The translations under genes were made by a program, and so were the position numbers. From Archangium gephyra (GTDB lineage: Bacteria; Myxococcota; Myxococcia; Myxococcales; Myxococcaceae), in the NCBI RefSeq assembly GCF_001027285.1, contig NZ_CP011509.1:4782501-4846500 (forward strand): 64,000 bases of DNA. Direction: 5' to 3'. The notes below the pieces were generated by a model. The model was not told where the DNA came from. It saw only the letters and a list, made by a program, of their open reading frames with translations, and did no database searches. This document shows, one piece after another, positions 3,136 to 45,367 of this stretch. The stretch's first letter is position 1, and each line of letters starts with the position of its first letter.

Positions 3136-4902
3136 ATGCGTCTCTGGCCTGCCCTCCTGTGCTGCCTGCTCCTCGGGATGCCCGTCCTGGCCGCTGAGGG
3201 TACGCCCACGCCCGTGCCCCTCGAGTCCGCGGTCCGGGCCCGGCTGGCGCGGGAGCCGAGAGACACCTCCAAGGCCCTCTTCCTCTTCTACGAGACACGG
3301 GGCTTCCAGCCCGCGTGGTTCTCCTATGACGGGGCGGTGCGGCCGCAGGCGGGTGAGTACCTCGCGGCGCTTTGCGAGGCGGAGACGGAGGGCCTGTGGC
3401 CAGAGCGCTACCGGCGCGCGGAGCTCGAGGCGGCCCTGCACCGGCTGACGCTGGACGGAGAGCCGGGGGAGGCGTGGGTGGAGGTGGAGCTGGGGCTGAC
3501 GTCGAGCTTCCTCTCCTACGCCTCGCACCTGCTGTCCGGACAGGTGTCCTCGCGCGGCCCGGGGTGGAGCACGAAGCCGCCGGGGGCGGTGGTCCTGGCG
3601 GCGGTGCTGGAGGGAGCGCTCGCGAGTGGAGACCTGGCCGTCACGCTGCGCGGCCTCTCCCCGAGCCATGAGGGCTTCGTGCGGCTGAGGGAGGCCCTCG
3701 CGCGTTACCGGGCCATCGCCGCCGCGGGGGGATGGCCGCTGGTGCCGGAGGGCAAGCCGCTCGAGCGGGGCATGCGAGAGCCACGGGTGGCGGTGCTGCG
3801 CGAGCGGCTGAGGTCCACGGGAGATCTGCCGCCGGCCGCGGAGGAGCGGTTGCTCTACCCAGGCGCGCCAGGCGTGGGCGTGGCGGTGCTGGTGGGGGAG
3901 CTCGTCCGCGCGGCGATGGAGGAGCCGGCTCCGGAGTCACCGAAGAAGCCCGTTCCCGAGGACCTCTACGACGCGGAGCTGGAGGAGGGGGTGAAGGCCT
4001 TCCAGCGGCGGCACGGCCTGGCGGCGGACGGGAAGGTGGGCAGGGAGACGCTCAAGGCGCTGCGGGTGCCGGTGGAGGAGCGCATCGCGCAGCTGCTGGT
4101 GAACCTGGAGCGCTGGCGCTGGGCGCCGAGGGAGCTGGGGACGCGGCACGTGCTGGTGAACCTGCCGGCCTTCGAGCTGGAGGCGGTGGAGCAGGGCCAG
4201 CCGGTGCTGCGGATGCCGGTCATCATCGGGCAGCAGGAGTGGAGCACCCCGGTGTTGCAGGACGAGGTGGAGTACCTGGTGCTGCATCCGACGTGGTACG
4301 TGCCGAGCAAGATCACCGCGGAGGAGGTGCTGCCGAAGCTGCGGGAGGATCCGGGGGCGGCGGCGCGGATGGGGCTGACGACGTACGATCGGGCCACGGG
4401 GCAGCCGGTGGACCCCGGGACGGTGGACTGGAGCGGAGTGGCGGCGGAGTCACTGCCCTACCGCTTCGCGCAGGATCCGGGGGCCGACAACCCGTTGGGC
4501 CGGGTGAAGTTCATGTTCCCCAACCGCTTCTCCATCTACCTGCACGACACGCCCAACCCGAAGCTCTTCACGGAGGCGCAGCGGGCCTTCAGCCACGGCT
4601 GCATCCGGGTGTCCGAGCCGGCGAAGCTCGCGGACTTCCTGTTGCGAGGCCACGAGGGCTGGACGGAGGAGTCCTTGGCGGCGGCGATGCAGGAGACGGG
4701 GGGCAAGCAGCGGCGGGTGGAGCTGCCGGCGCCGGTACCTGTGTACCTGCTGTACTGGACGAGCTTCGTGGGAGCGGATGGCCGGGTGCAGTTCCGGCCG
4801 GACGTGTACCGCCAGGACGCGGCGGTGAGGCGGGCGCTGGCGGTGAAGCCGGTGCCCGCAGCGGGTGAGTCTCCCGCGGCCTGCGGCGGGGCGCGCGGTT
4901 GA
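3136..4902 (+). CDS. L,D-transpeptidase of the YcbB/LdtD type
   Basis: The start at 3136 yields a Sec signal peptide (MRLWPALLCC... ending near LAAEG), so the 588-residue product is exported. A scaffold region comes first, then a peptidoglycan-binding domain (AFQRRHGLAADGKVG, about residues 283-300), then a YkuD catalytic domain. The catalytic motif SHGCIRVSEP places the nucleophile at Cys489 with His487. L,D-transpeptidases make 3-3 cross-links in peptidoglycan or attach proteins to it; length and domain order match the large YcbB class rather than the short ErfK class. The promoter must lie in the 135-bp divergent gap shared with the radical SAM gene. After the stop the base composition falls in GC. 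Confidence 0.93.
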   Translation: MRLWPALLCCLLLGMPVLAAEGTPTPVPLESAVRARLAREPRDTSKALFLFYETRGFQPAWFSYDGAVRPQAGEYLAALCEAETEGLWPERYRRAELEAALHRLTLDGEPGEAWVEVELGLTSSFLSYASHLLSGQVSSRGPGWSTKPPGAVVLAAVLEGALASGDLAVTLRGLSPSHEGFVRLREALARYRAIAAAGGWPLVPEGKPLERGMREPRVAVLRERLRSTGDLPPAAEERLLYPGAPGVGVAVLVGELVRAAMEEPAPESPKKPVPEDLYDAELEEGVKAFQRRHGLAADGKVGRETLKALRVPVEERIAQLLVNLERWRWAPRELGTRHVLVNLPAFELEAVEQGQPVLRMPVIIGQQEWSTPVLQDEVEYLVLHPTWYVPSKITAEEVLPKLREDPGAAARMGLTTYDRATGQPVDPGTVDWSGVAAESLPYRFAQDPGADNPLGRVKFMFPNRFSIYLHDTPNPKLFTEAQRAFSHGCIRVSEPAKLADFLLRGHEGWTEESLAAAMQETGGKQRRVELPAPVPVYLLYWTSFVGADGRVQFRPDVYRQDAAVRRALAVKPVPAAGESPAACGGARG

Positions 4903-5138
4903 GACTCATTCTTCGCATTCGCGCTTGACGACTGTTCATCTGGATTCGTTTCATTGCTCCATTTCTGGGACAGTGAATGCCGGGACATGAGAATCCGAGC
5001 CTCGGGATGGGTCTCGCGTCCATTCCCGCATTCCAGCTCATGAAGGATTGATTTCCACCATTGGAACGCACTGCAATACACGGTTTTCTGGAATGGCTGG
5101 TGCTTACTGTGCTGCCGCATCCGACGGAGGAATGCACG
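4903..5138. other. AT-richer leader before the lectin gene
   Basis: This 236-bp gap is visibly less GC-rich than its surroundings. A TTGACG hexamer occurs near 4924 without a convincing -10 box at the right distance. Imperfect inverted GAATGCCGGGA / TCCCGCATTC arms near 4974 and 5023 could form a hairpin. No gene is seen in it. Confidence 0.3.
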
Positions 5139-6443
5139 GTGAGCAAACACGAGATGCAAGTCGATTGGAGCAGGGGCTCTCGGGCACTGCGGGTTGTGGC
5201 GATAGGAGTTTTGAGTTTATTCGTTGTGAGCGGTTGCTCTCTTGGTCCAATGGATTCTGGCGAAGAGCTGGACGCTCAAGAGCAAACTCCTGACGTGACC
5301 GAAGGGGTTGCGCAGGAAGCCGATACAACTCGAACTCAGGATGCGAGACTGACCGCGAGTTGCCTCAGCAACTCAGCTGTGACAGGGCCTGTTGGCTGTA
5401 ACCTGGATGGACGGCTGGAGGTGTTTGCCCGAGGGGGAAATGGGGCCCTATGGCACACCTGGCAGGTCTCACCCGGTGGCGGCTGGTCCGGCTGGCATTC
5501 TCTGGGCGGCTCCATCACCTCGAATCCAACTGTAGGCCGCAATCATGATGGGCGGCTGGAGGTGTTCGCGAGAGGGGGAGACGGGGCCCTGTGGCACACC
5601 TGGCAGGTCTCGCCCGGTGGTGGCTGGTCCGGCTGGCATTCCCTGGGGGGCTACATCACCGCGAAACCCGCGGTCGGGCTCAATCATGACGGGCGGCTGG
5701 AGGTGTTCGCGAGAGGGGGAGATGGGGCCCTGTGGCACACCTGGCAGACCTCGCCGGGTGGTGCCTGGTCCGGCTGGTCGTCACGCGGGGGCTACATCAC
5801 CTCGGATCCTGTTGCAGGCCGAAATCATGATGGACGGCTGGAGGTGTTCGCCAGAGGGGGAGACGGGGCCCTGTGGCACACCTGGCAGACCTCACCGGGT
5901 GGTGCCTGGTCCGGCTGGCATTCCCTGGGCGGCAACATCACCTCAACACCTGCGGTCGGGCTCAATCATGATGGACGGCTGGAGGTGTTCGCGAGAGGGG
6001 GAGATGGGGCCTTGTGGCACACTTGGCAGACCTCGCCGGGTGGTGCCTGGTCCGGCTGGTCGTCACGCGGGGGCTACATCACCTCGGATCCTGTTGCAGG
6101 CCGAAATCATGATGGACGGCTGGAGGTGTTCGCCAGAGGGGGAGACGGGGCCCTGTGGCACACCTGGCAGACCTCACCGGGTGGTGCCTGGTCCGGCTGG
6201 CATTCCCTGGGCGGCAACATCACCTCAACACCTGCGGTCGGGCTCAATCATGATGGACGGCTGGAGGTGTTCGCCAGAGGGGGAGACGGGGCCCTGTGGC
6301 ACACCTGGCAGACCTCACCGGGTGGTGCCTGGTCCGGCTGGCATTCCCTGGGGGGCTACATCACCGGATTGCGCGTTCCAGCGCATGACAACGGGTCTGA
6401 AGGGCACCTGGAGGATTTGGCCTCCAACGCCCTCCATCGTTGA
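5139..6443 (+). CDS. Seven-repeat PLL-like beta-propeller lectin lipoprotein
   Basis: I chose GTG 5139 because GGAGG lies 8 bp upstream and it places a lipoprotein signal at the N-terminus (VVSGC, lipidated Cys33). An upstream in-frame TTG at 5061 would bury the signal. After a Thr/Glu-rich linker come seven 47-residue repeats from residue 91, each reading GRLEVFARGGDGALWHTWQ then SPGG.WSGW..GG.IT. This pattern is that of the Photorhabdus PLL/PHL lectins, which form seven-bladed propellers binding fucose and related sugars; seven repeats would exactly close one ring. Expected location is the outer membrane or cell surface. The last blade ends in a divergent tail (after YITGLRV) containing a faint relic, HLEDLA..NALHR, of another repeat. 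Sugar specificity is inferred only. Confidence 0.85.
   Translation: MSKHEMQVDWSRGSRALRVVAIGVLSLFVVSGCSLGPMDSGEELDAQEQTPDVTEGVAQEADTTRTQDARLTASCLSNSAVTGPVGCNLDGRLEVFARGGNGALWHTWQVSPGGGWSGWHSLGGSITSNPTVGRNHDGRLEVFARGGDGALWHTWQVSPGGGWSGWHSLGGYITAKPAVGLNHDGRLEVFARGGDGALWHTWQTSPGGAWSGWSSRGGYITSDPVAGRNHDGRLEVFARGGDGALWHTWQTSPGGAWSGWHSLGGNITSTPAVGLNHDGRLEVFARGGDGALWHTWQTSPGGAWSGWSSRGGYITSDPVAGRNHDGRLEVFARGGDGALWHTWQTSPGGAWSGWHSLGGNITSTPAVGLNHDGRLEVFARGGDGALWHTWQTSPGGAWSGWHSLGGYITGLRVPAHDNGSEGHLEDLASNALHR
5409..6395 (+). repeat. Seven tandem 141-bp coding repeats
   Basis: The unit is 141 bp (47 codons). Units 3-4 and 5-6 are almost identical at DNA level as a 282-bp pair: the alternating WSSRGGYITSDP and WHSLGGNITSTP versions recur exactly 282 bp apart. 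This indicates a recent two-unit duplication or gene conversion. Because the unit is a multiple of three, other frames also stay open through the array. Confidence 0.95.
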
Positions 6444-40250: not shown

Positions 40251-41213
40251 TCACGGCTGCTCCAGCGCGGACACGTCCGGGCAGGCCGAGGCACTGCCCA
40301 CCACCGCCGTCTCCCAGCTGCGCTTCAGATAGGTGACGCGGAAGCTGGCGTCCCAGCACTCCACCTGCGTCGCGGTGAAACCCGCGGGCACGTCTCCGCC
40401 CGTCACCGACACGATTCCCACGCCTCCCCGGTCCTTCGTCCACCGGCTGATGATGGCGAGGTCCTCCTTCCGCGTACCGGGAAGGATGTCCGTGTCCTCC
40501 AGCAGGAAGCCCATCTCTCCGAGGCCGCCAGGAAGCTCGCGGTACCCGTAGAGGAGCTCGGACGCGGTCTGGGGCGAGGCCGGGACGAAGCGCATCTGCA
40601 CGGTGATGGGGAGCGCGCGCGTCTGATAGACGATCTCCAACAGGTCCAGGTTCGCGAGCCCTCCGGCGTCGAAGCCATGGGCCTTCGTCTCCTTGACGAG
40701 GATCCTCACCGCGCCCGTGCCCTTGCGCAGCCCACCGTCCGGCTGGAAGGCTCCCTCCAAAGCGGACCACCACGCGTCCTCGCCAGCCCCCTCGCGCCGG
40801 TACTGGAGCACGTAGGTGAAGCGCTCGGGCTCGCGCTTCATCCCGAAGCGCACCTCGTGGCCGGGGTGGTTCGGGTCCGGCCAGGGCCCCCATACACGCA
40901 GCTCCGGTCCACGTGTCGTGGGCGGCAACTCGCGAATCTTCTCCAGCAGGGTGAGCAGCCCATCCATCCCGCCGTTGAATGCGTCCGAGGCCGCGCGCGT
41001 GTCCCGGTAGAGCTCGGACGGCTCTCCCACGGCCAGGGCCGCCGAGCGCTGGCGCAGGCCTCCCTCGCTCACCGTACCGTTGGCGCCGGGCAGCTCGGAG
41101 GCCAGATCCTCCCGGGTGGGCAGGGCGTTGAGGAACTCGAGATCGTCGTTGGAGAAGTTCCCGCCACACGCGGCGGCGAGGCAGCCCAACAGCAGGAGCC
41201 AGCAGTTGCGCAT
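40251..41213 (-). CDS. Lipoprotein paralogous to the one at 44163-45158
   Basis: The 320-residue product has a lipoprotein signal ending AAAC (Cys16). No known domain. It aligns by eye with the other flanking lipoprotein: LPTREDL vs LPTKELV, SELYRDTRAA vs SEFYKLTRAT, PPTTRGP...WGP vs PPTTLTA...WGP, ISRW.....GGDV vs KSRW.....GGDL, and VECWDASFRVTYL vs NECWDPTFASRYL. The two are thus paralogues. It is the last gene of the sigma/anti-sigma/caspase operon, 13 bp after the caspase gene. Confidence 0.8.
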   Translation of the reverse strand: MRNCWLLLLGCLAAACGGNFSNDDLEFLNALPTREDLASELPGANGTVSEGGLRQRSAALAVGEPSELYRDTRAASDAFNGGMDGLLTLLEKIRELPPTTRGPELRVWGPWPDPNHPGHEVRFGMKREPERFTYVLQYRREGAGEDAWWSALEGAFQPDGGLRKGTGAVRILVKETKAHGFDAGGLANLDLLEIVYQTRALPITVQMRFVPASPQTASELLYGYRELPGGLGEMGFLLEDTDILPGTRKEDLAIISRWTKDRGGVGIVSVTGGDVPAGFTATQVECWDASFRVTYLKRSWETAVVGSASACPDVSALEQP

Positions 41214-41226
41214 GACGCGCTCCCTG

Positions 41227-42828
41227 TCAGAGGCGGTACGTCACGAGCGCTCCGAGCTCCCAGTAGCCCAGGGAGCGCTGTGCGTCGACGTTGTAGAGGA
41301 GGTAGTGGACGCGGGCGCGCCCGGTGAGCTCGAAGCGATCCGACATCCGCCAGCGCACGCCTCCCACGAGGCCCGGCGTGAGCACGGCGTAGAACTGGTC
41401 CGGGAGGCTCGCGTCCTCGAAGTCGCGGCCCATGATGAGGTAGGCGAGCCGGGGGCCCACGAAAGGGGAGAGGCGGCCCAGGGGCCACTCGGCCACGAGC
41501 GAGGTGCCCGCGTTCAGCAGCGAGTAGCGGTAGCGCGGCCCCGAGAGGGTGGGAAGCTCCAGGGTGGCCTGCCGCCCGCCGAGCGACAGATCGACGTCCC
41601 AGCGCCAGTTCTCGCGGAAGTAGTGGTGCAGCCCCACCTCCAGGCCGAGCAGCGGCGTGGAGAGGAAGAGGTTCTCGCGCGTGGGCGTATCGAAGAAGGA
41701 GTGGTAGCCGCCGGTGAGTCCCAGCGTCCAGTACGTGCGCAGCCCGCGCTCGCGAGGTGCCACGCCCTTCACCGGGTCATCCGAGAAGGGCGCATCGTGC
41801 AGCCGGGACTCGTCGAGCACCGTGGTGCGCCCGCGCTGGACCTCGGCCTCGCCCACGCGCAGCCGGTCCGCCAGCCGCCGCTTCACCGTGTACCGGCCCG
41901 GGGCCAGGGCCAGCCGCCGCTCGGCGTCCATGGCCTTGTCCAGCTCCGCCACCACCAGTCCGGACGGGTTCACGAAGTAATAGGCCCCCGCGGGCGCGGT
42001 GCGGGGCACCAGCAGCCCCTCGTCGCGTCCCCGCAGGTCCGTCAGCACCAGGTCTCCATTGCCGGCGAGGTCGTAGCTGAAGGTGGGGTGCTGGGCTCCG
42101 GCGCTGCTGTCCGCGGTGTCCGCCACGGTGCGGGCGTAGGCATGAGAGTACGCCTCGAAGAGCGTCACCTGCCCGTCGCCCGAGCGGTCCGCGTCTCCCA
42201 TCAGCCCGCTGCCCAGGTGGTGGGAGAAGTAGCTGCCCCCCAACAGGTCCGACTCCTGCGAGTCCTCGTCCGCCGAGCTGGAGGTGAGGATGACGAGCCC
42301 CCGCGCCTCGCGCGTGGCGTTCGTGTCGATGGCGAAGGCTGGTGCGCGCCGGGCCCCCTTCGTCCGCGTGAGCGCTCCGGAGCGGCACGAGTCCAGGATG
42401 GCGATGCGGATGTCCGCGGGGGCCGCCAGCAACCGGCGCTTGAGCGATTCCAGGTCCAGCGCGCTGTCTCCCAGCCGCAGCGCGCCGTCCTTCGCATGGC
42501 CCGAGTAGTAGACGATGAGCGCGGTGCGCTCGCCCCGGGCCCGCGCCGCCCGGGCGCTCGACTCCAGCTCGGCCAGGGCGCGGAGGAAGTCTCCGGCATC
42601 CTCGTCCAGCAGCAGCCGCGCGTCGCTGAACTCCACTCCGCCCAGCCGCGTCAGCAGCCCGTGCATCTTGCGTGCGTCGTCCCGGGCGAAGCGCAGCGGC
42701 CGGGTGTCCGCGCCACCGTCGTCATTGCCCGCCACCAGCGCGAAGCGGCGCAGTGGCTGCGCCTGCACGGCCGCCGCCAGCACCAGCGCCAGGAGGAGCA
42801 CCAGGCCCTGCCCGGACAGGCGCCTCAT
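41227..42828 (-). CDS. Exported caspase-fold (C14-like) protease with C-terminal beta-barrel
   Basis: The 533-residue protein has a signal peptide (LVLLLALVLAAAVQA) then a caspase-like domain with His111 in YYSGHAKDG and Cys148 in LDSCRSGA, the intact catalytic dyad. An EF-hand-like loop (DADRSGDGQVTLFE) follows, as calcium-using metacaspases have. A short beta domain that resembles PEGA/stalk sequence comes next. The last 190 residues are about eight alternating hydrophobic strands (YWTLGLTGGYHSFF, PLLGLEVGLHHYF, GLVGGVRWRM, GYWELGALVTYRL), i.e. a probable outer-membrane barrel. Caspase-like proteases cleave after Arg, Lys or Asp. With the N-terminal domain expected in the periplasm, envelope proteins are likely substrates. 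Its start overlaps the anti-sigma stop by 4 bp. Confidence 0.85.
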   Translation of the reverse strand: MRRLSGQGLVLLLALVLAAAVQAQPLRRFALVAGNDDGGADTRPLRFARDDARKMHGLLTRLGGVEFSDARLLLDEDAGDFLRALAELESSARAARARGERTALIVYYSGHAKDGALRLGDSALDLESLKRRLLAAPADIRIAILDSCRSGALTRTKGARRAPAFAIDTNATREARGLVILTSSSADEDSQESDLLGGSYFSHHLGSGLMGDADRSGDGQVTLFEAYSHAYARTVADTADSSAGAQHPTFSYDLAGNGDLVLTDLRGRDEGLLVPRTAPAGAYYFVNPSGLVVAELDKAMDAERRLALAPGRYTVKRRLADRLRVGEAEVQRGRTTVLDESRLHDAPFSDDPVKGVAPRERGLRTYWTLGLTGGYHSFFDTPTRENLFLSTPLLGLEVGLHHYFRENWRWDVDLSLGGRQATLELPTLSGPRYRYSLLNAGTSLVAEWPLGRLSPFVGPRLAYLIMGRDFEDASLPDQFYAVLTPGLVGGVRWRMSDRFELTGRARVHYLLYNVDAQRSLGYWELGALVTYRL

Positions 42829-43574
42829 GGCTTGCGCAGCAGCCAGTGGGTCTCCTCGCCGCCGGAGCCCAGCGTGGTCATCGCCTCCACCTTGCCCCCG
42901 GCCGCCTCCCAGGCCCGCCGGGCCGACGCCCGCACCGCCTCCACGCTCAAGGGGTGCTCGGAGAGCACCGTCACCACGCGTTCGTAGCCCGAGCCGGTGA
43001 ACACCACGCTGTCGGGCAGCCAGTGCCGGCCCTGGCCCGCCTCCACGGGGAGGCTCATCCCGTCCTGGGCGTAGAGCTCCGACACCTCGCCAGCCGCGTC
43101 CACCGACACCGCGAGCACGTACCGGTAGGGTCCGGCCACGTACGCCAGCCGCACCTTCTCACCCGGCTCCAGCTCCTCGGTGTCCCCCGGCAGGACGCCG
43201 CGCTGAGGTCCGCCTCCGCCGACCCTCAGCTCCGCCGAGGCCCCGCCCTTGAGCCGGTTGACGGGCGGTTGGGAGAGCATCGGCCGCACCAGCACCACCA
43301 GTAGCACCGAGGCCGCCATCGCCACCAGCACCCCATTGCGCAGGGACTTCGAGGGCCGCGCCTTCGGCTTGTTCAAGGCGCGCTCCACACCAGCCTCGAA
43401 ACGCTCGAAGGGAATCTCCGCCTCGAAGCGGGCCTGGTTCGCCTCGAGCCCCTTCACGAGCTCCTGGCACTGCGCGCACCCGGACGCGTGGGTCCGGGCG
43501 AGCTCGGCCTCCTTGCCGGGAAGCTCTCCGGCGTGCAGCCTCCGCAACGTCCACTCCGACAGGTGCGCGCTCAT
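42825..43574 (-). CDS. Membrane zinc-binding anti-sigma factor
   Basis: The N-terminus has the ZAS pattern H29-x3-C33-x2-C36 (HASGCAQC). One transmembrane helix follows (GVLVAMAASVLLVVLVRPML, 81-100), leaving a periplasmic domain of about 150 residues (LEPGEKVRLAYVAGPYRYVLAVS, DSVVFTGSGYERVVTV), like DUF4384-type sensor modules. Such proteins hold an ECF sigma factor until a periplasmic signal leads to release or proteolysis. ATGA overlaps tie it to the sigma gene before it and the caspase gene after it. Confidence 0.88.
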   Translation of the reverse strand: MSAHLSEWTLRRLHAGELPGKEAELARTHASGCAQCQELVKGLEANQARFEAEIPFERFEAGVERALNKPKARPSKSLRNGVLVAMAASVLLVVLVRPMLSQPPVNRLKGGASAELRVGGGGPQRGVLPGDTEELEPGEKVRLAYVAGPYRYVLAVSVDAAGEVSELYAQDGMSLPVEAGQGRHWLPDSVVFTGSGYERVVTVLSEHPLSVEAVRASARRAWEAAGGKVEAMTTLGSGGEETHWLLRKP

Positions 43575-44110
43575 GGGATCTTCAGCTCCTCGTTCGACAG
43601 CGCGGCGAACTGCTCCAGCCGCTTGCGCACCGTGGGCACCGAGCGCCCCAACATCGCGGCCACCTCTTCCAGCGTCATCCCGTCCACCCAGTAGTGCACC
43701 ACCGCCGACTGCGTCTCCACGTCCACCCGCGACAGCAGCGCGCGCACCAGCTCCCGCGTCTCCAGCTTCCGCGCCCCGTCATCTCCCTCGGGGCGGGCCA
43801 GCTCGTCCCGCTCGAACCAGCGCCGCCACGGCGCCTTTTCCGCCCGCAGCTGGTTGAGGCAGTGGTGGGTGGCGATCTTCATCAACCACGCCAGGGGCGA
43901 GGACTCGTTGCGCAGCCCCTCCGAGTGGGTGAGGGCGCGGGCGAACACCTCCTGCATCGCATCCTCCGCCTTGCTGGCGTCCTTCAACAGGTAGCGGCAG
44001 CGCCCATACACGCTGCCGCCATATGCCGTGTACAGCTCGCGCAGGACCGTACGCCTGTCCTTCTGACCGCCGTCGATACCCTTCAGGACCGGTGGACTCG
44101 CTCCTGCCAC
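43571..44110 (-). CDS. ECF-type sigma factor
   Basis: The 179-residue protein has sigma region 2 (DAMQEVFARALTH, SPLAWLMKIATHHCLNQLR) and region 4 (VVHYWVDGMTLEEVAAMLGRSVPTVRKRL). It has no region 1.1 or 3, as in ECF factors. GAGG lies 7 bp upstream of the GTG start. Being first in the coupled set, it presumably drives its own operon; no matching promoter is obvious because the gap to the upstream lipoprotein is only 52 bp. Confidence 0.93.
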   Translation of the reverse strand: MAGASPPVLKGIDGGQKDRRTVLRELYTAYGGSVYGRCRYLLKDASKAEDAMQEVFARALTHSEGLRNESSPLAWLMKIATHHCLNQLRAEKAPWRRWFERDELARPEGDDGARKLETRELVRALLSRVDVETQSAVVHYWVDGMTLEEVAAMLGRSVPTVRKRLEQFAALSNEELKIP

Positions 44111-44162
44111 GAACTGCCTCGTCTCGCTGCGGGGTGGAAGGCCGCGAGCTTACAACGAGGAC

Positions 44163-45158
44163 TCACAACGAGGAGTAGCTGGCCGTGGCGAAGACGCAGT
44201 CCGTGGCCTCGAGGCCGTACTGCACCTGGGGGACGGCGTAGCTGGCGCGCAGGTAGCGGCTGGCGAAGGTGGGGTCCCAGCACTCGTTGGCGGTGGCCGT
44301 CTCCGTGCCCAGGTCCCCGCCCGACAGCTCCACATCCGAGCGGCCAGCGCCCGTCTCCAGCCAGCGGCTCTTGATGGTGAGGGTCTCCTTCGCGGCCGAG
44401 CCCTCCGCCTTGTACCAGTCCTGGACGAGCTTGAAGTCGAACTGGCCGCCCTGGGTGGGGGTGGCGGCGTAGCGGTAATCCGCGTCCACGCGCTTGCTGG
44501 CGTCGTTCTCGTCGCGCACCTGGCGGAAGGCCGCATCCACCGTGGCGGCGCTCTTGTCGTCCTGGCGCGTGTACTTCACGGTGAAGCGGCCCACGTTCGC
44601 GTCATGCTCGGGAAGCGTCGCCGCCTTGTCCCAGTCGAGCGTGAACTCACCCTGGCCGAAGCCCCTCACGGGCTCGCCAGCCTCGTCCACCGCGGCGGTG
44701 TGCGTGCCGGTGATGACGTCCACGAAGGCCGAGTCCTGCGCCTCCTTCGCCTTGGCCGACACCGTGTAGCTGTAGGTGTCCTCGCCCGTCTTCTTCACGG
44801 TGAGCTTCCAGGTGTTGCGGGCGAGCGCCTCGGTGTGCGGACCCCACACGGCGGTGTCCGCGGTGAGCGTGGTGGGCGGGTACTGCGTCACCTTGTCCAC
44901 CAGTCCCAGCACCCACAGCGTGCCGCCGTTGACCAGCACGGTCGTGGCCCGCGTCAGCTTGTAGAACTCGCTCAGGTCGCCCTTGCCCTGGCCGTGCACG
45001 GCCTCCTCGGACGTGAGTCCCTGGCCGCTCTTCTCCGGCGTCTTCACCGCCACCAGCTCCTTGGTGGGCAGCACGGAGCGGAACTCCGTCTCCCGGTCCA
45101 TCCGTCCACAGCCAGCGAGCATCAGGGCGGAGATCAGCAGGCTCTTGCGCAGCGTCAT
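44163..45158 (-). CDS. Lipoprotein paralogous to the one at 40251-41213
   Basis: ATG 45158 has GAGG 8 bp upstream and opens a lipoprotein signal (LMLAGC, Cys17) on a 331-residue protein. No known domain. It shares the LPT.E..., SEFYKLTR, PPTT...WGP, SRW and ECWD..F...YL anchors with its paralogue at the other end of the cluster. It ends 52 bp before the sigma gene, so it is probably the first gene of the cluster. Confidence 0.8.
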   Translation of the reverse strand: MTLRKSLLISALMLAGCGRMDRETEFRSVLPTKELVAVKTPEKSGQGLTSEEAVHGQGKGDLSEFYKLTRATTVLVNGGTLWVLGLVDKVTQYPPTTLTADTAVWGPHTEALARNTWKLTVKKTGEDTYSYTVSAKAKEAQDSAFVDVITGTHTAAVDEAGEPVRGFGQGEFTLDWDKAATLPEHDANVGRFTVKYTRQDDKSAATVDAAFRQVRDENDASKRVDADYRYAATPTQGGQFDFKLVQDWYKAEGSAAKETLTIKSRWLETGAGRSDVELSGGDLGTETATANECWDPTFASRYLRASYAVPQVQYGLEATDCVFATASYSSL

Positions 45159-45367
45159 GTTCTGTCCTCTCGGTTGTCCGCCCGGCCTTCCGGTCCGGTG
45201 CGGGTCATCTGCCCGTAGGGACACAGCAGGGTCCAAAAACAGAAAAGGCGATTTTCGGCGGACAGAAACCTCAGGGATTCCAAGGCCTTGGAGGCCCCCT
45301 GGTTGCCCTCCAGGCATACCGGACGGGGGCTCCGACGAGAAAAAGGACCCGTCCCTAGGTTTGGCCC

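Follow-up and report, generated by a model that had tools for sequence, protein, structure and literature searches.

Caspase homologues have been known in bacteria for two decades, but their links to cell death are mostly guessed and few of their natural substrates are known. In Myxococcus xanthus four of the five metacaspases share an operon with a sigma-70 factor, and the same arrangement has been recorded in Anaeromyxobacter, Haliangium, Sorangium, Ralstonia and Fibrobacter (Asplund-Samuelsson et al. 2012, PMC3501461). The accessible passages of that survey suggest a link to cell death and contain nothing on an anti-sigma partner, periplasmic topology, a barrel, lipoproteins, an RxKG motif, covariation or a promoter; neither an anti-sigma partner nor a mechanism for such operons was found in the literature searched, outside which most subscription papers lie, and PMC7406223 makes no mention of caspases. 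Here we describe a locus with the same association of caspase and sigma-70 factor in Archangium gephyra, at 40251-45158 of a 64,000-nucleotide stretch of contig NZ_CP011509.1 (hereafter the window), in which genes for an extracytoplasmic function (ECF) sigma factor, a zinc-binding anti-sigma (ZAS) factor and an exported caspase with a C-terminal barrel stand between two lipoprotein genes. From the conservation of genes and motifs, the covariation of those motifs, the catalytic residues, the predicted fold and topology, and a single promoter-like block, all of them computed, we arrived at a reading to which we assign a probability of roughly 0.6: the caspase, anchored in the outer membrane, would be a dedicated site-1 protease that cuts the anti-sigma factor at RxK/G (the slash marking the scissile bond) and autoregulates its own operon.

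All five genes are on the minus strand, as are all window features given below, and form an operon in the order LP2, ECF sigma, anti-sigma, caspase-barrel and LP1, where LP denotes a lipoprotein. The sigma gene (43571-44110, GTG start) overlaps the anti-sigma gene (42825-43574) by ATGA at 43571-43574, and the latter overlaps the caspase gene (41227-42828) by ATGA at 42825-42828. The set with ATGA at both junctions, as reported in a preliminary description of this DNA, was seen again. Such overlaps recur among relatives, where the stop codon lies in ATGA for 99 sigma genes and 70 anti-sigma genes, with further stops in GTGA. The sigma protein of 179 aa consists of regions 2 and 4 only, with PF04542 (Sigma70_r2) and PF08281 (Sigma70_r4_2) above the Pfam cut-off and TIGR02937 also above its cut-off, and hence falls in the ECF group (group IV).

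The anti-sigma factor was examined for the features of its class. Its cytoplasmic domain carries the ZAS zinc motif H29-x3-C33-x2-C36 (43467..43490), present in at least 97% of 59 orthologues, and is followed by one predicted transmembrane (TM) helix at residues 82-100 (43275..43331) and a periplasmic domain, the architecture that the preliminary description had proposed. An H-x3-C-x2-C motif in the cytoplasmic domain next to a sigma gene places it in class I (ZAS), and it is predicted to be the class I-type inhibitor of the adjacent sigma factor. The match to Pfam zf-HC2 was sub-threshold, and the zinc ligands are missing in some paralogues (loci L013, L015 and L019). PF14326 (DUF4384; cut-off 27) was exceeded by the paralogues of L015 (30.0 bits) and L019 (29.8 bits), with weaker matches in L016, L014, L018 and L013; the window protein itself gave no PF14326 match but is homologous to the L013-L019 paralogues over the same region, and its ectodomain is probably of the DUF4384 type. 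In other proteins DUF4384 is fused to a caspase homologue (PMC6426788), which suggests a physical partnership in cis elsewhere.

The exported p20-type caspase matched Peptidase_C14 (PF00656) above the Pfam cut-off. Its AlphaFold2 model, computed with 53 homologues (predicted local distance difference test, pLDDT, 89), comprises a caspase domain, an EF-type helix-loop-helix, a beta middle domain and an eight-strand barrel, and the catalytic part of this predicted structure aligned with Arabidopsis metacaspase 4 at Z 21.9 and with caspase-7 at Z 21.6. His111 (42496..42498) and Cys148 (42385..42387), the dyad previously noted as intact, are invariant in the 53 relatives together with D51, D146, E192, D214 and E225, and a His/Cys dyad in a caspase fold assigns the protein to C14 (metacaspase/orthocaspase type). 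Residues 366-533 (41230..41733) are predicted as eight long strands that match OmpA and NspA (Foldseek E 1e-9, TMt 0.70-0.76) and also OmpX, so that on the predicted structure the segment has the eight antiparallel TM strands of an OmpA-type barrel, in agreement with the outer-membrane-type barrel first suggested from the letters. Both ends of an eight-strand barrel are in the periplasm; since the protein begins with a signal peptide and ends in the barrel, its predicted termini, and with them the catalytic domain, should face the periplasm.

To consider what such a protease might cut, its specificity pocket was compared with those of characterised relatives. MALT1 residues D365 (alpha1), D462 (L4) and E500 (L5) determine specificity for Arg at P1 (PMC4357240), and D95 and D211 of TbMCA2 accommodate basic residues (PMC6426788). 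In the window caspase alpha1 contains D51, which aligns with a metacaspase Asp, D146 lies two residues before the catalytic Cys and likewise aligns with a metacaspase Asp, and E192, the proposed S1 acid, lies in the loop after beta5 (42247..42255, which also holds D194), its equivalence to the metacaspase/MALT1 pocket being one of loop position only. The invariant D51, D146 and E192 would together resemble the Lys/Arg pocket of MALT1 and the metacaspases, and on that likeness Lys or Arg would be expected at P1.

The activation loop is the loop that is cleaved when animal caspases become active. In the window caspase it contains R155-T-K157-G158 (Cys+7 to Cys+10; 42355..42366), a proposed autocleavage site, and residues 157-168 are predicted to be disordered (AlphaFold2 pLDDT <50). 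The anti-sigma factor carries R107-L-K109-G110 (43245..43256) about nine residues beyond its TM helix, where the caspase is proposed to cut or dock and in which K109 is invariant in 41 sequences and R107 and G110 are at least 90% conserved; among homologues the TM helix was predicted in 149 of 150, a median of 13 residues ahead of the motif Lys. In the first ten caspase/anti-sigma pairs, those of the host genome, the partners agreed by eye in the identity of P1 (K or R) and in whether P3 is R, and for that reason a shared code was hypothesised. Among the host-genome relatives of the anti-sigma factor that have no caspase, by comparison, (K or R)G occurs within 36 residues after the TM helix in one of about ten.

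Across all pairs the caspase loop contains (K or R)G in 150 of 150, exactly at Cys+9 in 145, and the anti-sigma juxtamembrane segment contains (K, R or M)G in 150 of 151; P3 Arg is present in both partners in 121 pairs, in neither in 16, in the caspase only in 10 and in the anti-sigma factor only in 3. Seventy-one survey pairs from other genomes, which had played no part in forming the hypothesis, served as an independent test set. Here the caspase has K at Cys+9 in 67 pairs, the anti-sigma factor has K in 66 and G in 71, and P3 Arg is distributed as 49 both, 11 neither, 8 caspase only and 3 anti-sigma only (Fisher p=7e-6); strict alignment columns with no motif search still gave p=1.6e-4 for the P3 Arg association. 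A Pagel test on all pairs, run on a catalytic-domain tree from which the loop had been left out and assuming a single tree and a midpoint root, yielded a likelihood-ratio statistic (LRT) of 20.9 (4 degrees of freedom, p=3e-4) for P3 Arg in the caspase versus the anti-sigma factor.

Unbiased scans pointed to the same positions. When 424 caspase columns were scanned against anti-sigma P3, residue 194 ranked first and the loop P3 second, and in the reverse scan of 231 anti-sigma columns against caspase P3, anti-sigma P3 ranked first. Residue 194 is Asp or Glu in 134 of 150 sequences, and 14 of the other 16 have no Arg at either P3 site; an acid at 194 gave a Pagel LRT of 21.2 with anti-sigma P3 Arg and of 20.9 with the caspase's own P3 Arg, and none of 48 other variable catalytic columns reached 20.9 against anti-sigma P3, the maximum being 17.5 (R141). 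The loop holding residue 194 is the one that pairs with the substrate strand in caspases, and this residue, two after the proposed S1 acid, would be a natural S3 acid. Judged from these sequence patterns, the active-site cleft of the caspase appears to recognise the juxtamembrane segment of the anti-sigma factor by the code that the caspase loop carries too. The earlier suggestion that the exported protease acts on the anti-sigma factor is therefore supported in part, by the shared covarying RxKG motifs and the covarying acid at 194, and the predicted topology agrees with it; the cutting itself is a step that we infer.

Several points weigh against a cleaving caspase. The hypothesis was derived from the first ten pairs, and the motif definition was adjusted once, for RGKG loops, a choice of which the strict-column test is free. 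The ten caspases with P3 Arg noted above have partners without it, four survey pairs (L195, L200, L204 and L205) have xMG in place of xKG in the anti-sigma factor, eight of 80 survey caspases keep the KG loop with no anti-sigma factor detected nearby, and an orphan anti-sigma factor (L124) has TRTKG with no adjacent caspase. D194 is assigned to S3 by where it stands in the loop and by fold homology, and since the caspase and the anti-sigma factor sit in different membranes the linker that joins the barrel to the catalytic domain would have to span the periplasm. Finally, the covariation suggests reading by the active-site cleft and not cutting as such; a pseudosubstrate would covary too.

A pseudosubstrate is accordingly the first alternative to be weighed. 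RxKG would dock uncut in the active site and keep the caspase inactive, or the protease would hold the anti-sigma factor, until a signal dissociates the pair and frees sigma factor and protease together. Any partner that stably occupied the S3-S1 cleft could account for the covariation with residue 194, and the four xMG anti-sigma factors keep P3 Arg with a P1 at which a Lys/Arg protease should not cut. However, the same motif occurs in the activation loop, the normal place of cleavage in animal caspases, neither Pro nor any other uncuttable residue is found at P1' (G in 71 of 71), and tethered pseudosubstrates spanning two membranes would be unusual. We consider docking without cleavage unlikely, though worth keeping in view. 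The four R-x-M-G anti-sigma factors, whose partner caspases keep (K or R)G, are candidate uncleavable or differently cut variants in their own right.

Rather improbable, in our estimate, is the second alternative, in which the caspase works downstream of the sigma factor as its output, for cell death, remodelling or lipoprotein processing, and a generic DegS-like protease cuts the anti-sigma factor, the shared motifs reflecting a common envelope context. The caspase gene is indeed downstream in the operon, so that the protein would be made when the sigma factor is active, and the 2012 survey, in the passages available, suggested that metacaspases of Myxococcus have roles in programmed cell death. 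Such an effector predicts neither a site-specific, phylogeny-corrected coupling between anti-sigma P3 and caspase residues nor the absence of the motif from other anti-sigma factors, and common ancestry cannot explain the shared motif because caspase and anti-sigma factor are not homologous. Very improbable is mere coincidence, with the juxtamembrane KG marking the start of the DUF4384-type domain, the caspase KG a fold constraint and the P3 covariation residual phylogeny: KG is found in nearly all members of both families, mostly without a covariation signal, and the background column R141 reaches an LRT of 17.5, but the caspase loop is predicted to be disordered, two separate caspase positions top unbiased scans, and in the ten survey loci where 194 is not acidic anti-sigma P3 Arg is missing every time.

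Returning to the caspase as a dedicated site-1 protease, the sequence of events that we infer, from the signal through cleavage, its order and the downstream steps of regulated intramembrane proteolysis to binding of the sigma factor at its promoter, would run as follows. The ECF sigma factor would be held at the inner membrane by the single-pass ZAS anti-sigma factor, and the exported caspase would be anchored to the outer membrane by its barrel with the catalytic domain facing the periplasm. A trigger, for which the barrel or the two lipoproteins may be the sensor, would lead to auto-processing at R-T-K/G in the activation loop and to cutting of the anti-sigma factor at R-x-K/G (RLK/G), about nine residues outside the membrane, one code serving for self and substrate. 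Once the ectodomain had been removed, site-2 protease (S2P, RseP-type), homologues of which are present, and cytoplasmic proteases would free the sigma factor, which would then transcribe its own operon from a promoter whose sequence occurs a single time in the genome.

The candidate for this promoter is a conserved block upstream of LP2, TTTCTGTTTT-N11-GTGTCC (45219..45245), which may be the target of the operon's own sigma factor. It is conserved among orthologues, with an exact match in 25 orthologous loci, among them L058, where it lies directly 5' of the sigma gene. Searching the single-contig 12.49-Mb genome returned one exact occurrence, at the window operon, and allowing two mismatches added three chance-like sites; a scan for a sigma-70-type promoter found none. 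If the block is the promoter of the sigma factor, the switch would mainly amplify its own operon, and a weaker promoter consensus may exist elsewhere.

Conservation of the neighbourhood was assessed with one genome per species, which gave 76 loci with relatives of the window caspase. Nearly all those of sufficient length retain the order LP2-sigma-anti-sigma-caspase-LP1, in Archangium, Hyalangium, Corallococcus, Myxococcus, Pyxidicoccus, Citreicoccus and Anaeromyxobacter, and since it recurs from Archangium to Anaeromyxobacter the five-gene order is not due to chance. The A. gephyra genome encodes 11 further caspases paralogous to that of the window, nine of them with the same type of anti-sigma factor nearby, one with a sigma factor only and one with neither. 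In a phylum sample ranked by similarity to the window caspase, and so describing this caspase family rather than all bacterial caspases, the family occurs in 44 of 58 genomes with up to 19 copies per genome; 72 of the 80 survey loci have the anti-sigma factor, and 65 of these 72 also have a recognised sigma factor. The adjacency of sigma factor, ZAS anti-sigma factor and caspase is conserved across the phylum, as the neighbourhood search proposed earlier had been meant to determine, and its description as unusual did not survive: it is the rule in Myxococcota (nine of 11 paralogues, 72 of 80 loci), caspase/sigma-70 operons have been known since 2012, and a one-off fusion or coupling is ruled out by repetition within the genome and across the phylum. 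A search for plasmid copies yielded a single distant caspase match. The system is real, conserved and repeated.

Individual loci depart from the common layout. KG-loop caspases with no anti-sigma factor detected within about 2.5 kb are those of L161, L178, L181, L184, L198, L199, L203 and L151. L124:6783-8076 (minus strand) encodes a sigma factor and the TRTKG anti-sigma factor without a caspase and is a sibling of L013, where 3182-6339 (plus strand) encodes an anti-sigma factor and a caspase without a recognised sigma factor; the two may be a split module in which a single caspase serves two anti-sigma factors. At L015:5029-6972 (plus strand; genome 12352428-12354371) a caspase paralogue, a TPR-like stretch and an ECF sigma factor share one uninterrupted 647-aa frame, followed by the anti-sigma gene. 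A true fusion would tie an exported caspase and a cytoplasmic sigma factor into a single polypeptide; the frame may equally reflect an internal ATG start or an error of sequencing. The loci outside the window genome include draft metagenome-assembled genomes with frameshifts, and the apparent anti-sigma/caspase fusion of L133 was set aside as a likely frameshift, the linking stretch not reading as an anti-sigma domain.

Directly left of the window, L020 (genome 4772400-4783900) encodes a distant caspase with a barrel-like C-terminus that adjoins an ECF sigma gene; it has neither this anti-sigma type nor the KG loop and is a natural negative control. The window caspase loop from D214 to E225 (42154..42189), D-x-S-x-D-G-x-V-x-x-x-E, fits the canonical EF-hand pattern between two predicted helices, both ends being invariant in the 53 sequences, in line with the EF-hand-like loop noted before. 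The calcium-responsive signal built on it found no support: nothing beyond loop conservation speaks for calcium, L020 has the same loop type without this anti-sigma factor, and the EF-type loop is a feature of the caspase family that gives no evidence for calcium sensing.

LP2 (44163-45158) and LP1 (40251-41213), the latter after the caspase in nearly all orthologous loci, are true paralogues, as had been supposed of the two flanking lipoproteins: they are 26% identical, and 11 invariant columns are common to 65 sequences, with the shared pattern N..WGP..G.G..CW..C. The LP2 lipobox (...LAGC17) has an invariant C17. The AlphaFold2 model of LP2 (pLDDT 91) shows an N-terminal helix and about 13 beta strands, for which Foldseek returned no PDB match at E<=0.001; assigning a function from the fold was abandoned, as VIA-align gave unrelated beta proteins at Z<=8.9. 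The earlier idea that the protease might cut the lipoproteins met with neither support nor contradiction. A different lipoprotein type (about ..ETYxGxPLxxLxG..) flanks paralogous modules at L014:3516-4469, L016:3206-4531 and L018:2923-3705, and each type of module may thus come with a lipoprotein of its own.

With up to 19 copies per genome, a myxobacterium could run many parallel caspase-gated sigma channels, in which an RxK/G-type code serves both self-activation and the cognate anti-sigma factor and the co-diversifying S3 acid and P3 residue insulate the channels; we advance this only tentatively. If true, bacteria would have a family of caspase cascades with transcription as their output. 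The window operon stands for a phylum-wide family with a predicted substrate, scissile bond, S3 specificity residue and single target promoter, all of them testable in the laboratory, and if the proposed cleavage is right, caspase-fold proteases are dedicated site-1 proteases of envelope ECF signalling.

Caspase/sigma operons as such are already known, as the passages of the 2012 survey attest; apparently new, as far as the literature was searched, are the pairing with an anti-sigma factor, the proposed cleavage code that covaries between the two proteins, the predicted anchoring in the outer membrane and the promoter-like block unique to this operon. MALT1 paracaspase and the type I and II metacaspases (C14B) share with the window caspase the predicted fold and a putative acidic P1 pocket pattern, with Lys/Arg at P1 proposed here, whereas the window caspase is exported, has an EF-type loop, a beta middle domain and an outer-membrane barrel, and its proposed substrate is a signalling membrane protein. 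ECF54 sigma factors with CHAT-domain neighbours also place an ECF sigma factor near a caspase-like protease with proteolytic control proposed, but they are treated as having no anti-sigma factor, and the protease is a CHAT domain rather than the p20 domain with outer-membrane barrel seen here (PMC8999054). DegS/RseP-RseA-sigmaE and AlgW-MucA-AlgU combine an ECF sigma factor and a single-pass anti-sigma factor with a periplasmic site-1 cut followed by S2P, as is proposed for the window operon; their site-1 enzyme is a PDZ serine protease of the inner membrane, whereas here it would be an operon-encoded His/Cys caspase of the outer membrane. In the type III-E CRISPR Csx29-Csx30-CASP-sigma system a caspase-fold protease is likewise proposed to cut the inhibitor of a sigma factor, with autoregulation also proposed (PMC10028731), but that system is cytoplasmic and activated by target RNA, its protease is a CHAT protease with TPR, its inhibitor is unrelated and there is no membrane step; the likeness is used here as a mechanistic analogy only, no search having been aimed at cas genes. 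If the proposed cleavage is true, the Myxococcota possess a parallel to Csx29/Csx30 that is membrane-based and present in many copies per genome.

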